A program made the translations under genes and the position numbers. Of a stretch of 35,291 bases of DNA, positions 27,669 through 32,774 are shown one piece after another (within the stretch, counting starts at the first letter, position 1; every line of letters begins with the position of its first letter). The stretch covers positions 1 through 35,291 of the forward strand of contig JAMDDG010000299.1 of assembly GCA_023488865.1 (NCBI GenBank), in the 5' to 3' direction. The notes under the pieces were generated by a model. It was not told where the DNA came from, made no database searches, and saw nothing but the letters and a program-made list of their open reading frames with translations. This DNA is from Bacteroidota bacterium. GTDB lineage: Bacteria > Bacteroidota > Bacteroidia > Bacteroidales > Prolixibacteraceae.

Positions 27669-27855
27669 TATATATGAATTAAAAAATTGAAAATAAGGAA
27701 GAAATGGGCTCCAGACAATCAGGTAAAGCTTCTGACAATAATCCGTTTGCCGACTACATTTTTGATACTTTTTGAATATACCGTTTCCAAAATTTTCAGA
27801 AACGCAAACAGTATAGAAATAATCCCTGATTTTTTGTTCCTTGGCGAGGGTAAAA

Positions 27856-27990
27856 TTACAGTTCGAGCAAAAGAAAATCAATCAGATTCATTTGCTTGAT
27901 ACCCTGATAATCATCCCCTATAATCATGTCGTTTAGCGTAATCACGTATTTGGGATAGTTGTCGTTGATCATCAGCAAACCACCACAAGA
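27856..27990 (-). pseudogene. 3' remnant A of an AAA ATPase gene
   Basis: Minus-strand frame reads ...KGSCGGLLMINDNYPKYVITLNDMIIGDDYQGIKQMNLIDFLLLEL*, resembling the C-terminus of AAA_14/DUF4143-type ATPases; no N-terminal part is present. Confidence 0.65.
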
Positions 27991-28010: not shown

Positions 28011-29492
28011 TTAGATATTTAAGCTTGATTTATTTAAGAACAAACATTCCATTGTCAACGAATTGGATATTATATCATTGGAATGCGAATTGCTTGTAAT
28101 TCCAAAGGTGGTGATCATGGTAATGAAGATGTTTTTCTTTGTTTTGGTCATATTTATAAGAACATCCTTTTTTTGCCTGAGTTTTTTTGCATAATCTGCA
28201 TCAATTGTAAATTCAGCTTCCGAGAACTTCATTTCGCAAAGGTTAATGGAGGCATCTTTCCTGTCGATCAGCAGATCGATCTGAGTTCCAATGTCAGACG
28301 AATTTTTTTGTGCAGAATAGTGCCAGGGGCCATGAAAAGTTCCAACCATTCCAATCCCAAGTGCATTTTTGATATGTTGTATATGTTTCATACAGATCCC
28401 TTCAAAAGTATACCCAGCCCATGCTCTTCTCCGTGGATCATTTTGCTTGGATAGCCAATATCCCTCTCCGGGATCTCTTTTACCCAGGGGTTTTATCCAG
28501 TCAAAATAAAAAAGTGTAAATTCATCGGTAACCCGGTAAATCACATCATTTGATTTTTTTCCAAAGGGAATCCATGACTCGATAAAGCCCGATTCTTCCA
28601 ATTCTTCCAGTATCTGGCTGGCCGTACCCCCGCTTGGAATCTTGGCTGCGGATAAAATCAGGTTTCGGCTCATTCCTGATCGGTTCTGTCTTAATGCCTC
28701 AATAATTCTGATATGCTGATCGCTTTGATCGAAAAGTGATGCGTATAGCTTTTCAAATTCACTCCTTAATAGTCCTCCCCTCGAAAAGCAGATTTTATCT
28801 ATAATTTGCACCGATGAAAGACCTGGTTCTGCCTGTTTCAGGTAGTATGGCACACCACCCAAGGCCATGTAAAGCGAAATGATTTGAAATCTGGTAAGTA
28901 CAACTCCCCTCGATTTCAAAAAGCTTTCAGCTTCCGGAATTGTAAAAGGTAATAACCTGATTTGACGGGTAAGTCTGTTGTGAAGTCCCCCTTTGGAGTT
29001 AACAATTTTTTGAATCATCCAGGAGGCGGCGGATCCGCAAACAACCAGAACCAGGTTGCTTTGTTTCGAACCAAAACTATTCCAGAAATGCTCTAGTGCT
29101 GCTAAGAATTTCGATTTCGGAGTATTTAGCCACGGCAGTTCATCAATAAAAACAACCCTTTTGCCAGTATCTTGTTTCTGTTTTAACGATTCTATAAATT
29201 GCTCCAGAAAAGAAAAAGCTTCAAACCACGATCCTGGAGTTTGAGGTAGGATACCAATTCCGATGGCATTTTTAAGCGATTGCGCGAAGTTTTTTAGCTG
29301 CACTGTCAGTGATGCCTGGTGAACACCCACCATTTCAAAACAGATCGAATCCCCATAAAATTCCCTGATCAGAAAAGTTTTACCCACCCTGCGGCGACCA
29401 TAAACCGCCATGAATTCCGGATCTGGTGAATGAAAGGCTGTTGCTAGTATTTCGGTTTCATTAATTCTTCCTATGATCTTTTCTTTTGCCAT
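28011..29492 (-). CDS. AAA ATPase (PF01637-type ATPase_2 / DUF234-like)
   Basis: KIIGRINETEILATAF...FMAVYGRRRVGKTFLIREFYG (Walker A), VVFIDELPWLNTPKSKFL (Walker B), VLVVCGSAASWM; C-terminal nuclease-like segment DLLIDRKDASINLCEMKFS. ATG at 29492 preferred over 29534. Confidence 0.88.
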   Translation of the reverse strand: MAKEKIIGRINETEILATAFHSPDPEFMAVYGRRRVGKTFLIREFYGDSICFEMVGVHQASLTVQLKNFAQSLKNAIGIGILPQTPGSWFEAFSFLEQFIESLKQKQDTGKRVVFIDELPWLNTPKSKFLAALEHFWNSFGSKQSNLVLVVCGSAASWMIQKIVNSKGGLHNRLTRQIRLLPFTIPEAESFLKSRGVVLTRFQIISLYMALGGVPYYLKQAEPGLSSVQIIDKICFSRGGLLRSEFEKLYASLFDQSDQHIRIIEALRQNRSGMSRNLILSAAKIPSGGTASQILEELEESGFIESWIPFGKKSNDVIYRVTDEFTLFYFDWIKPLGKRDPGEGYWLSKQNDPRRRAWAGYTFEGICMKHIQHIKNALGIGMVGTFHGPWHYSAQKNSSDIGTQIDLLIDRKDASINLCEMKFSEAEFTIDADYAKKLRQKKDVLINMTKTKKNIFITMITTFGITSNSHSNDIISNSLTMECLFLNKSSLNI

Positions 29493-29502
29493 AAGATCGA
29501 TT

Positions 29503-29640
29503 TTGGCTGCATTTAAACATCTATAACCAGCCAAAAATACACAATTAGTTTTGATTTGGCTGCATTTACTAAATTATTATCAGCCAAAAATACATATATA
29601 CTCTCGTTATGGCTGCATTTAATTATTTATTATCAGCCAA
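29503..29640. repeat. Three dyad-symmetric repeats (TGGCTG-N18-CAGCCA type) with 53-bp period upstream of the ATPase
   Basis: GGCTG at 29505, 29558, 29611; CAGCC at 29528, 29581, 29634; both arms recur at exactly 53 bp. Confidence 0.85.
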
Positions 29641-29806
29641 AATATTTTATTGATCAGATATACAACATCATAATATCTCTATCTCAATCGCTCGGGCATC
29701 AATATCTCCCTCTGCCGTAAGTTGATTTGCCTGATTTGGGAATATAACTTGGATCTAGTGCGATAACCGTTTCAGTAGAGACTGTTTGTTTGATACCCTG
29801 ATATCT

Positions 29807-31003
29807 TTAATACAAAAACCCAAACGACCAAAACGGGATCTTATTTTGTTGGGCATATTCTATATTGTCGGCGACCACATAGGCGTTTTCAATTCCTGTA
29901 ATTTGTTTGCGGGTTTTGTTTTTGCCTCCAATTTCAAAGGTGTATTTATGGTCGACCAGAAAATCACTCTTGTCTATAGCGTTAATGGCGTGAAGAACCT
30001 GAAGTTGGTTTAAAAAGAAGGTTTCCCGTAAGGTTCCCTGATTTGATTGATGATCTGTCAGTGTATTGACAAGATTCGGATTATTCAGGTATATTTTTTC
30101 GGGTTTGTTCATTTTAGTGATTCCATGGGCGCTGGTTTGTAAAAGTATTAATAGATCAGCCTTCTCGAGCAGATATAAATATCGAACGAGTGTTTCACGA
30201 CTCACCCCCACCTGCTGACTGAGATTCACAATATTGGGCTTGTAAGGAACAATCTCCGCCAGTATGGCAATGAGCTTTCTTAAATAATGGACTGCATTAA
30301 AGTCAATATTTTCAACTGATGGTAAATCGCTGTCCAATAAATGATTTACTGTTTGTTTAAGCCTGATTTGAAATTCGGCTTCACCTTCCCTGAAAAAGGG
30401 ATAATATCCGAATTGGAGATACTCTTCGAAAAGTTTTAGCGGTTTTATTTTCTCCAGAATAGCCGGAATCCTTTTTGACGCATTTTTCAAAAGATCGTCC
30501 AGATCAAGAACTGGAAGATGATAATTGTATTTTAATGCGATAAACTCCCGAAAAGACAAGCCCTGTAATTTATAAAGGATGGCTCGCCGGCTTAAATCAG
30601 CTTTCCCTCTGTAAATATCCAATGCGGAAGAACCGGTTATTGCAATCTTTAGATCAGGGAAATAATCATATATGTTTTTGATCTCCTGCGACCAGTTTTT
30701 GTATTTGTGAATTTCATCCAGAAAAAGATACTTCCCACCCTTTTTTACAAACTCATCTGCAAAACTAACAAGGGTGTTTTTTGAAAAATATAAATCATCA
30801 AGGTTTGCATAAATAACTTCATCTGGTGTTTTATTTAAATTTTCCCTGATGTATTGGAGCAATAGCGTAGTTTTCCCAACACCTCTCGCTCCGGTTATCG
30901 CTATTAATCGGTTGTTCCAGTTAATCTTATTCCATAAATAACGTTTGAAAGAGGTATCAACAGCGGCGATCCTTGATGCTGAAAATTGAAACAATTTTTC
31001 CAT
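29807..31003 (-). CDS. AAA_14 / DUF4143-type ATPase
   Basis: NRLIAITGARGVGKTTLLLQYI (Walker A), KYLFLDEIHKYKNWSQEIKNIYD (Walker B), KIAITGSSALDIYRGKADLSRRAILYKLQGLSFREF; winged-helix and DUF4143-like C-terminus. ATG at 31003 preferred over TTG at 31057. Confidence 0.88.
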   Translation of the reverse strand: MEKLFQFSASRIAAVDTSFKRYLWNKINWNNRLIAITGARGVGKTTLLLQYIRENLNKTPDEVIYANLDDLYFSKNTLVSFADEFVKKGGKYLFLDEIHKYKNWSQEIKNIYDYFPDLKIAITGSSALDIYRGKADLSRRAILYKLQGLSFREFIALKYNYHLPVLDLDDLLKNASKRIPAILEKIKPLKLFEEYLQFGYYPFFREGEAEFQIRLKQTVNHLLDSDLPSVENIDFNAVHYLRKLIAILAEIVPYKPNIVNLSQQVGVSRETLVRYLYLLEKADLLILLQTSAHGITKMNKPEKIYLNNPNLVNTLTDHQSNQGTLRETFFLNQLQVLHAINAIDKSDFLVDHKYTFEIGGKNKTRKQITGIENAYVVADNIEYAQQNKIPFWSFGFLY

Positions 31004-31036
31004 TTTGTCAGATGCTTTCTGCAAATATAGCAATAT

Positions 31037-31058
31037 ATTGACAGATGCATCTGTCAAT
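31037..31058. promoter_or_regulatory. 22-bp perfect palindrome ATTGACAGATGCATCTGTCAAT upstream of the AAA_14 ATPase gene
   Basis: Directly read; 33 bp upstream of ATG 31003; an imperfect half-site TTGTCAGATGC lies at about 31005-31015. Confidence 0.7.
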
Positions 31059-31147
31059 TACATCTTTTTATTTTTGGTATCATATTTAGGAATCACTCAT
31101 TTGTGCCTACGGCATGGATTTTCTGAATTACCAGATTGATGACAAAA

Positions 31148-31234
31148 TTACTGTTCGAGCAAAAGAAAATCAATCAAATTCATCTGCTTGATACCCTGAT
31201 AATCATTCCCTGTAATCATGTCGTTTAGCGTAAT
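31148..31234 (-). pseudogene. 3' remnant B of an AAA ATPase gene, near-identical to remnant A
   Basis: Minus-strand frame reads LNDMITGNDYQGIKQMNLIDFLLLEQ*; about 5 mismatches over 87 nt versus 27856-27942 by eye. Confidence 0.65.
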
Positions 31235-31237
31235 TTC

Positions 31238-32467
31238 TTAATCCCTGATCTTATCCATCGCTGTTTGAATATTGTTACTTGTTTCTTTGGTGATGCCATA
31301 TTCACTGGCAATTGCGCCCCATTGGCTTATGGCCTCCTGAACCTCTTCGATTATGGAGCTTGCATTTTTCAACCCGAAATGTGCGGACAATTTCATAAGC
31401 TCTTTTCGTCCCGGATTTTTACTTTCCCCGGCTATCATGGTACTGTGAAACCCGTATCCGGAATACGAGAAGGTAAGATCGTAGGCCGGTGCAAACCGCC
31501 ATTCTCCTTTGGCATCCAATAGGAAAGAGAAATTCTTGCTGTGGTCATCCCGGTTATGCGAATACACGTTAAATGCAGCCAACCTGAAAATTTTTTCATA
31601 GGCTTTCACATGCTTTTCCAGCCGGAAAGCACAATCCATCAAATGCCCGTAATCCATTGTACTCATCCTGAAGTTGTCGTGCATGATACCAGAAGCGGTG
31701 TGTGTATGCAGACGTTTCTCAGCTGCCCGGTCAAACCGCTTTGTCCCAAAATATACCTGTCCTGATTTCCCTTTAAAAAGACGGCATTCACTCATTTCTA
31801 TGCCTGCCAGAAGGGCCATTTTGTGATAAGCAAATTCGATGTTCGCGATCTCCCTGTTATCAGATGATGACGGGAATTTGATGATCCATTCGTCATAGCC
31901 TTCCGGGATGTTGTCCACACCGTGTATCAGGTCGTCGGTCAGCGGGTTGTAAGCAGCAAAAATCTTTGGCCTGGCGCCACCTGAAGATCCTCCGAGGATA
32001 AACAATTCCTCGATAATCTCTGAGCTGGTGCCCTGGAGTATGTGGCTCATTTCAGTGGCAAGGATATCCAGTTCGGGAACAAGGTCTGTTGTCTTTTCAG
32101 GTTTAATTTCTGGTCTGTAAGCAAGGGCCCCCATTCCCCGTGATCCGACATAAGCCAGCCGGTCCAAAGGTGTTATCCTACCAATGTCAATCCCTTTTGC
32201 AGATAAGGAGCGGTCCAATAATAGTCGGCCCCAGCCATCAGGTAATGAGTCGTTGAATACCCCAAACAACCCGTCAAAAGGTTGTTTCTCGGCACTTACT
32301 ATATCACCTGAAAAAGGGAGTTTTATGGGCGAAAGATTAAGCCCGGTTTTAAGGTAATCAGTATTGTACCTGAAATATATTTTTTGGCCGGAAAGCACCA
32401 GTTCCCCAACTTCAAGGCTATTTCCCCCGAGAAGCAGCGATACGAACAATTTATTGATACCGGCCAT
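31238..32467 (-). CDS. hipA: HipA-family Ser/Thr kinase toxin
   Basis: KPFDGLFGVFNDSLPDGWGRLLLDR, GGSSGGARPKIF, NIEFAYHKMALLAGIEMSECRLF, FGTKRFDR, FNVYSHNRDDHSKNFSFLLD. Confidence 0.9.
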   Translation of the reverse strand: MAGINKLFVSLLLGGNSLEVGELVLSGQKIYFRYNTDYLKTGLNLSPIKLPFSGDIVSAEKQPFDGLFGVFNDSLPDGWGRLLLDRSLSAKGIDIGRITPLDRLAYVGSRGMGALAYRPEIKPEKTTDLVPELDILATEMSHILQGTSSEIIEELFILGGSSGGARPKIFAAYNPLTDDLIHGVDNIPEGYDEWIIKFPSSSDNREIANIEFAYHKMALLAGIEMSECRLFKGKSGQVYFGTKRFDRAAEKRLHTHTASGIMHDNFRMSTMDYGHLMDCAFRLEKHVKAYEKIFRLAAFNVYSHNRDDHSKNFSFLLDAKGEWRFAPAYDLTFSYSGYGFHSTMIAGESKNPGRKELMKLSAHFGLKNASSIIEEVQEAISQWGAIASEYGITKETSNNIQTAMDKIRD

Positions 32468-32477
32468 TGGTTATTGC

Positions 32478-32774
32478 TTAATCTTTAAATAATTTTTTAA
32501 TATCATCAAGGTTTTCCTTTAAAAGCAGGAGGTTGTCAAATTCATTCAACCGTCCTAAAAGGTGCATCAGTTTCAGCAGCGAATCCAGCGATATTTTTCC
32601 GGTATTCTCGAAACGCTTTAAACTGCCCAGGGATACGCCCGAACGTTCGGCCATCTCTTCCTGCGACATTTTTAGTTGCTTTCGCAAGGAGCGGTGTCTT
32701 TCGGCCAGTGCTTTACTTACCTTCAGTGGCGTTGGTCCTAATGAATACATTTTTTTGGTTAAAATATTATCCAA
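32478..32774 (-). CDS. hipB: HipB-like XRE-family antitoxin/regulator
   Basis: HTH_3: LAERHRSLRKQLKMSQEEMAERSGVSLGSLKRFENTGKISLDSLLKLMHLLGRL; 10 bp upstream of hipA on the same strand. Confidence 0.85.
   Translation of the reverse strand: MDNILTKKMYSLGPTPLKVSKALAERHRSLRKQLKMSQEEMAERSGVSLGSLKRFENTGKISLDSLLKLMHLLGRLNEFDNLLLLKENLDDIKKLFKD

Follow-up and report, generated by a model that had tools for sequence, protein, structure and literature searches.

Just upstream of an ATPase gene in the 35,291-nucleotide stretch of DNA analysed here (the window), a short inverted repeat recurs at a fixed interval, which raises the question of what the repeats do and which protein, if any, reads them. The first-pass annotation had taken the layout for a cooperative operator or an iteron array, bound possibly by the ATPase itself or by a regulator. 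Our analysis makes it very likely that the array is a private operator of the downstream gene, read by the winged helix of that gene's own product, with autorepression as the most likely outcome.

The repeat array upstream of the ATPase gene

GGCTG starts at 29505, 29558 and 29611 and CAGCC at 29528, 29581 and 29634, a spacing of exactly 53 bp. These half-site coordinates and the exact period, given already in the first-pass annotation, were confirmed by the sequence and by TRF, in which the period-53 array (2.7 copies, 29497-29642, score 158) was by far the strongest tandem repeat of the window. The array consists of six half-sites in alternating orientation just 5' of ATG 29492, which comparison of homologues identified as the conserved start of the ATPase gene. 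Copies 1 and 2 read TTTGGCTGCATTTA ... CAGCCAAAAATACA and copy 3 reads TATGGCTGCATTTA ... CAGCCAAAATATTT. Two different spacings separate the alternating half-sites, so that two phases of reading are possible. The dyads had been paired across an 18-bp spacer, but the phase conserved in the family is the other one, which joins CAGCC 29528 with GGCTG 29558 and CAGCC 29581 with GGCTG 29611. The conserved unit is 31 bp long, GCCANA-N19-TTTGGC on the minus strand, and each unit of the window contains the -7 box TATTTTTG (Table 1). Cooperativity is suggested by the regular spacing taken by itself.

Searches of the genome assembly, which is 83% complete, found TGGCTG-N12..24-CAGCCA at 7 places, three of them those of the window, compared to 1 place for a reversed-pattern control. 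In the 31-bp phase there were 11 places and 7 for the control, and only the two window copies were operator-like. No full operator was found elsewhere in this assembly. A low-complexity or REP repeat, scattered through the genome, was rejected on these grounds. Because the operator occurs at no other gene of the assembly, control by it appears to be local.

Table 1. Coordinates, in the window, of the array and of the gene that it precedes
Feature	Position	Strand	Basis
PDC-S27-type ATPase gene, 493 aa; ATPase_2 / ORC-STAND-like ATPase, winged helix, PD-(D/E)XK-like C-terminus	28011..29492	-	Pfam, PADLOC, AF2, Foldseek
PD-(D/E)XK-like nuclease core, residues 385-461	28110..28340	-	invariant columns, strand-helix pattern
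Winged-helix domain (residues 257-321), with its recognition helix at 289-300 and wing strands at 304-307 and 318-321	28530..28724	-	AF2 secondary structure
Codon of Ser287, predicted main specificity residue	28632..28634	-	top of 378 columns, z 14.4
Half-site TGGCTG closest to the ATG, likely part of the 5' leader	29504..29509	+	sequence
Proximal operator unit, GCCAAATCAAAACTAATTGTGTATTTTTGGC	29530..29560	-	family-wide geometry
TATTTTTG, matches the Bacteroidota -7 box TAnnTTTG	29532..29539	-	inside right arm, proximal unit
Distal operator unit, GCCATAACGAGAGTATATATGTATTTTTGGC	29583..29613	-	paired half-sites of conserved phase
TATTTTTG, -7-like box of the distal unit	29585..29592	-	sequence match
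Outermost half-site CAGCCA	29634..29639	+	sequence

The ATPase-nuclease protein

The ATPase domain of the gene product was recognised by Pfam PF01637 (E 3e-13), and residues 4-485 of the protein aligned with positions 2-473 of the 474 in PADLOC model PDLC04984 (PDC-S27) with an E value of 3.6e-191. In the AF2 model (pLDDT 88.8) a P-loop ATPase is followed by a winged helix, the arrangement of STAND and ORC/Cdc6 proteins, with winged-helix helices at residues 257-269, 276-283 and 289-300. Foldseek returned 2qen from P. abyssi as the best match to this model, followed by ORC/Cdc6 and plant NRC NB-ARC proteins. The C-terminal part, previously described only as nuclease-like, is backed as PD-(D/E)XK-like by the predicted fold and by D406 and E420-x-K422, which are invariant among homologues and typical of PD-(D/E)XK. 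PF01637, the invariant residues and the strand pattern together place the protein among the ATPase-PD-(D/E)XK fusions called PDC-S27, and the gene is accordingly a predicted, uncharacterised phage-defence candidate.

PDC-S27 is described as a putative single-gene defence candidate in which an ATPase is fused to PD-(D/E)XK, with 3503 instances in Archaea and 4562 in Bacteria; the PDCs are experimentally unvalidated and antiphage activity is pending for most of them (PMC12988326). The window gene is a strong, full-length match with the same fusion. The passages of that source on PDC-S27 concern its domains, distribution and tree, to which a predicted operator and its code are added here. In the literature available as open-access full text we found no operator, autoregulation or recognition code for PDC-S27.

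Dyads upstream of homologues

We collected 166 distinct homologues by searching the family and the class and by scanning genome-wide; 164 of them had usable upstream DNA. A significant dyad (p<=0.05) was present in the 130 bp before the ATG in 84% of the 164 and was not found by that score in about 16%. Over these 130 bp, the top-scoring inverted repeat had a median score of 15.2, compared to 7.4 in dinucleotide shuffles, 7.6 in far-upstream DNA and 8.0 downstream. A fixed-geometry score >=8 was reached by 87% of homologues, by 1.2% of shuffles and by 9% of far-upstream stretches. The operator-array reading is strengthened by these data, since arrays with the same 53-bp period stand 5' of nearly all homologues and repeats were present in the upstream regions of the orthologues.

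Orthologues at 75-82% identity kept TGGCTG/CAGCCA-type dyads or close variants, and homologues at 43-49% identity had dyads at the same place in other spellings. Half-site spelling varied from gene to gene, also between paralogues of one genome, so a fixed TGGCTG motif, as first proposed, was rejected in favour of a spelling private to each gene. A dyad of the same layout was present on a Butyrivibrio (Bacillota) plasmid and on an Emticicia plasmid. Dyads were also seen in contigs labelled Planctomycetes, Chlamydiae and Myxococcota, labels that can be wrong for metagenome-assembled genomes (MAGs), which make up many of the source genomes and are of uncertain binning. No consistent dyad was found in more distant ATPase_2 homologues, an archaeal plasmid copy included.

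Geometry of the dyads and overlap with the promoter

The arms paired at 0.87-1.0 over the positions 9-17 bp to either side of the dyad centre, with a drop beyond about 24 bp; base identity at 12-18 bp from the aligned centre was mixed despite the high pairing. Convergent half-sites were 29 or 30 bp apart in 171 cases (75 and 96, respectively). Half-sites of the same orientation recurred at 52, 53 and 54 bp in 23, 59 and 40 cases, respectively (122 in all), with a second peak at 106-108 bp. Because this recurrence extends across homologues, the 53-bp period is a property of the family.

The -7 box of Bacteroidota has the consensus TAnnTTTG (PMC7366714). Of the homologues, 77% had a match no more than 130 bp from the start, compared to 3.8% in far-upstream DNA, an enrichment that may partly reflect the dyad itself because box and arm overlap: in Bacteroidota the TTTG of the box is the inner right arm of the dyad. 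Among 103 aligned dyads, TAnnTTT[GA] was most often placed +6 or +4 relative to the dyad centre (39 instances). The dyad is thus in register with the -7 box, and the sites overlap the gene's promoter, as defined by consensus match and predicted start.

Covariation of half-site and protein

The spelling of the half-sites was compared with the protein by mutual information between 378 variable protein columns and 14 half-site bases. Half-sites were aligned without protein information, by their geometry, which together with the -7 box also fixed the phase. Residue 287 with half-site base 4 ranked first among the 378 x 14 pairs (z 14.4), followed by 315 with base 2 (9.3), 287 with base 3 (8.6), 290 with base 7 (6.5) and 293 with base 7 (6.2), where z derives from plain permutation and ignores relatedness. 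Columns 287, 290, 293, 314, 315 and 320 all fall within the winged helix, and some scattered columns elsewhere in the protein were also among the following pairs. In the AF2 model, residue 287 immediately precedes the recognition helix at its N-terminal end, 290 and 293 are on the helix and 315 is in the wing.

Relatedness was addressed for the pair of 287 and base 4 by simulating residue 287 along a tree from which the winged helix had been left out. Mutual information was 0.566 in the data and reached at most 0.254 in 2000 phylogenetic simulations. By parsimony, residue 287 changed 41 times and the half-site base 34 times.

Ser287 was accompanied by T-G at bases 3-4 in 53 of 53 genes (TTTGGC) and Thr287 by G at base 4. 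The remaining classes are not absolute: with Asn287, base 4 was A (A before GC) in 25 of 33, and of the 26 genes with Asp287, 18 had C at base 3 and 15 had C at base 4. The window protein, with Ser287 and a TTTGGC half-site, is as the code predicts. Genes that had no part in deriving the code also agreed with it, namely six with Ser (L130, L251, L253, L255, L256 and L257), four with Asn (L027, L258, L259 and L260) and the clear Asp cases L230 and L152, the last being the second copy in the window genome, with the dyad ATTCAGCGAATAAT. Two further Ser cases outside the derivation, L086 (whose start is uncertain) and L225, had no usable dyad. Thr members of another class, likewise outside the derivation and most of them from one genus, keep G at base 4. 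None of 36 pairs of paralogues from the same genome shared a half-site.

The spelling of the half-sites follows a few amino acids of the protein's own predicted DNA-reading helix. It is the covariation that points to the gene's own product as the probable reader, and the suggestion that the ATPase binds the array is in this respect well supported. At the level of sequence, this is a real, family-wide candidate operator system of an uncharacterised ATPase-nuclease family, whose recognition code appears readable.

A model of autoregulation and its alternatives

It is very probable, on the covariation and the promoter overlap, that the ATPase-nuclease switches its own gene, and autorepression by binding of each ATPase to its own promoter is the most likely mode. 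The conserved dyad, its fixed geometry, the promoter overlap and the covariation with the protein were established by computation; what we infer is that the protein binds directly and as a dimer, that it represses and does not activate, that a signal releases it and that it has a role in defence. The winged helix would read the half-site, residue 287 specifying the base or bases before GC, residues 290 and 293 those after it; the A/T-rich inner part would be read by the wing. A dimer, if that is the stoichiometry, would sit on two half-sites 29/30 bp apart, covering the -7 box and the region upstream, and the recurrence of units every 53 bp would let further molecules bind on about the same face of the DNA. 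Repression would be the natural outcome because the dyads sit over the -7 region: bound protein would block RNA polymerase, and the gene would repress itself until a signal switches the ATPase. Release may depend on the ATP state or on a bound ligand, as in other STAND-like or ORC-like switches.

A HipB-like HTH gene at 32478-32774 of the window could suggest that a separate regulator binds the dyads and that the ATPase has no part. Against this, the covariation between half-sites and the recognition helix of the ATPase itself exceeds what phylogeny accounts for, paralogues of one genome have different half-sites, and the six annotated plasmid records contained no common neighbouring regulator; we regard this explanation as highly improbable. 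The complementary arms near the start codon could also be those of RNA hairpins (an attenuator, a leader structure or a terminator) rather than of protein-binding DNA. With the -7 box placed inside the arms and between them, the transcript is predicted to start after most of the unit and to lack the left arm; a hairpin loop needs neither the fixed 29/30-bp nor the 53-bp distances, and the spelling tracks a protein residue. An RNA element was rejected, as the array matched no Rfam family and the promoter lies inside the dyad, and it is in our estimate extremely improbable.

Dyads after the stop codon

Promoter repression alone leaves one result unexplained: in 28 of 131 homologues (21%) a complete copy of the gene's own dyad recurred downstream of the stop codon, in most cases no more than 20 bp away. 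With another gene's half-site the corresponding frequency was 3-7%, and further downstream it was 1-2%. Loci such as L177, L145, L089, L144 and L190 have their own dyad on both sides of the gene. Upstream and downstream copies kept the half-sites, but most of their spacers differed (direct identity 0.56), a pattern that suggests function and not just a recent duplication. The window gene has no downstream dyad.

For the dyad-gene-dyad locus L145 (G379:C58), the corresponding site was located in relatives by joining the flanks. The site is empty in L264 and L269, with neither gene nor dyad, and L265 (G902:C2:121900-122563) has a solo dyad exactly there; the stretches examined of all three contained no PDC-S27 gene. 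A similar search for the empty site of a second bracketed locus, L150, gave a match to one flank only and no joined match. Deletion between the flanking dyads, precise excision, and insertion with terminal dyads are all possible histories of the L145 locus.

The bracketed genes, together with the empty and solo-dyad sites, are what would be expected if the dyads were the ends of a mobile or self-excising unit, recognised by the ATPase-nuclease, with the promoter overlap secondary. TnsC/TnsA-like and REP/RAYT-like systems recognise their own ends in an analogous way, and the ATPase is weakly similar to the TnsC profile (E 4e-4). Against this, 79% of the genes, the window gene among them, have no downstream copy, the spacers of the two copies differ as noted, and solo dyads are not dispersed, since G379 and G902 have operator-like copies at this locus only. 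A single locus was resolved, without a demonstrated target-site duplication, and deletion between direct repeats would equally leave a solo dyad. We consider this explanation quite unlikely. A broader proposal, in which PDC-S27 genes are self-recognising units, whose dyads on both sides are bound for control of expression and also allow the gene to move, to excise or to be lost in a precise manner with solo dyads left behind, while the private address coevolves with its DNA reader, is likewise unlikely. The private operator read by the gene's own winged helix remains our preferred interpretation of the array.

The upstream flanks of L146 and L150 share the stretch ctattctcgaaccaattttgggatga.tgagggttta, which occurs again downstream of the gene in L146 and may mark an insertion site. 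A tRNA-Asn gene adjoins L150.

Comparison with known systems

Autoregulated wHTH and HTH repressors, such as those of toxin-antitoxin operators and RptR of defence islands, likewise have repeated sites on their own promoters, with repression inferred (PMC12255303). In contrast to these small, separate repressors, the reader here would be a domain inside a large ATPase-nuclease effector, and its specificity is diversified across the family. Autoregulation by a winged helix is known; in the present case it would form part of a candidate defence effector, with a specificity that differs from one gene to the next. REP/RAYT genes are similarly bracketed by their own palindromes (PMC2817692), as are about a fifth of PDC-S27 cases, but the dyads described here are neither high-copy nor dispersed, and the window protein had Pfam ATPase domains only and no Y1 (HUH) transposase.

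The ATPase and winged-helix fold is shared with ORC/Cdc6, with STAND (NB-ARC) proteins and with PABY2304 of P. abyssi (2qen), as judged by Foldseek. ORC/Cdc6 winged helices bind DNA. The window ATPase differs in its additional PD-(D/E)XK domain, and no link to a replication origin was found. The fold resembles ORC/Cdc6, but the earlier idea of iterons found no support in our analysis: the dyads lie over the promoter of one gene, and nothing in the data points to replication.

PDC-S27, a very common family, would gain from this analysis a cognate DNA element and named candidate reading residues. Well over a hundred private operator-reader pairs offer a natural set for the coevolution of regulator and site after duplication, and such pairs may be useful for building orthogonal repressors. 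The bracketed genes and solo dyads raise the question whether PDC-S27 genes move as units.

Neighbouring genes in the window

The neighbouring PDC-S01/DUF4143 ATPase gene (29807-31003, minus strand) has the palindrome TTGACAGATGCATCTGTCAA at 31036-31057. A second half-site, GCATCTGACAA, lies beside its likely ATG, with TATATTTG in between, and the window copy reads TTGACAGATGC...GCATCTGACAA. Dyads 5' of relatives of this gene gave a weak and mixed signal (median 9.6 vs 7.4), and the gene possibly has a similar private operator. A 91-bp direct repeat (27852-27942 and 31144-31234, 86 of 91 positions identical), of which the genome has no third copy, brackets the two ATPase genes and adjoins hipA. 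The hipA/hipB-like toxin-antitoxin pair (31238-32774) and the two ATPases beside it, both predicted defence candidates, suggest a small defence cluster.
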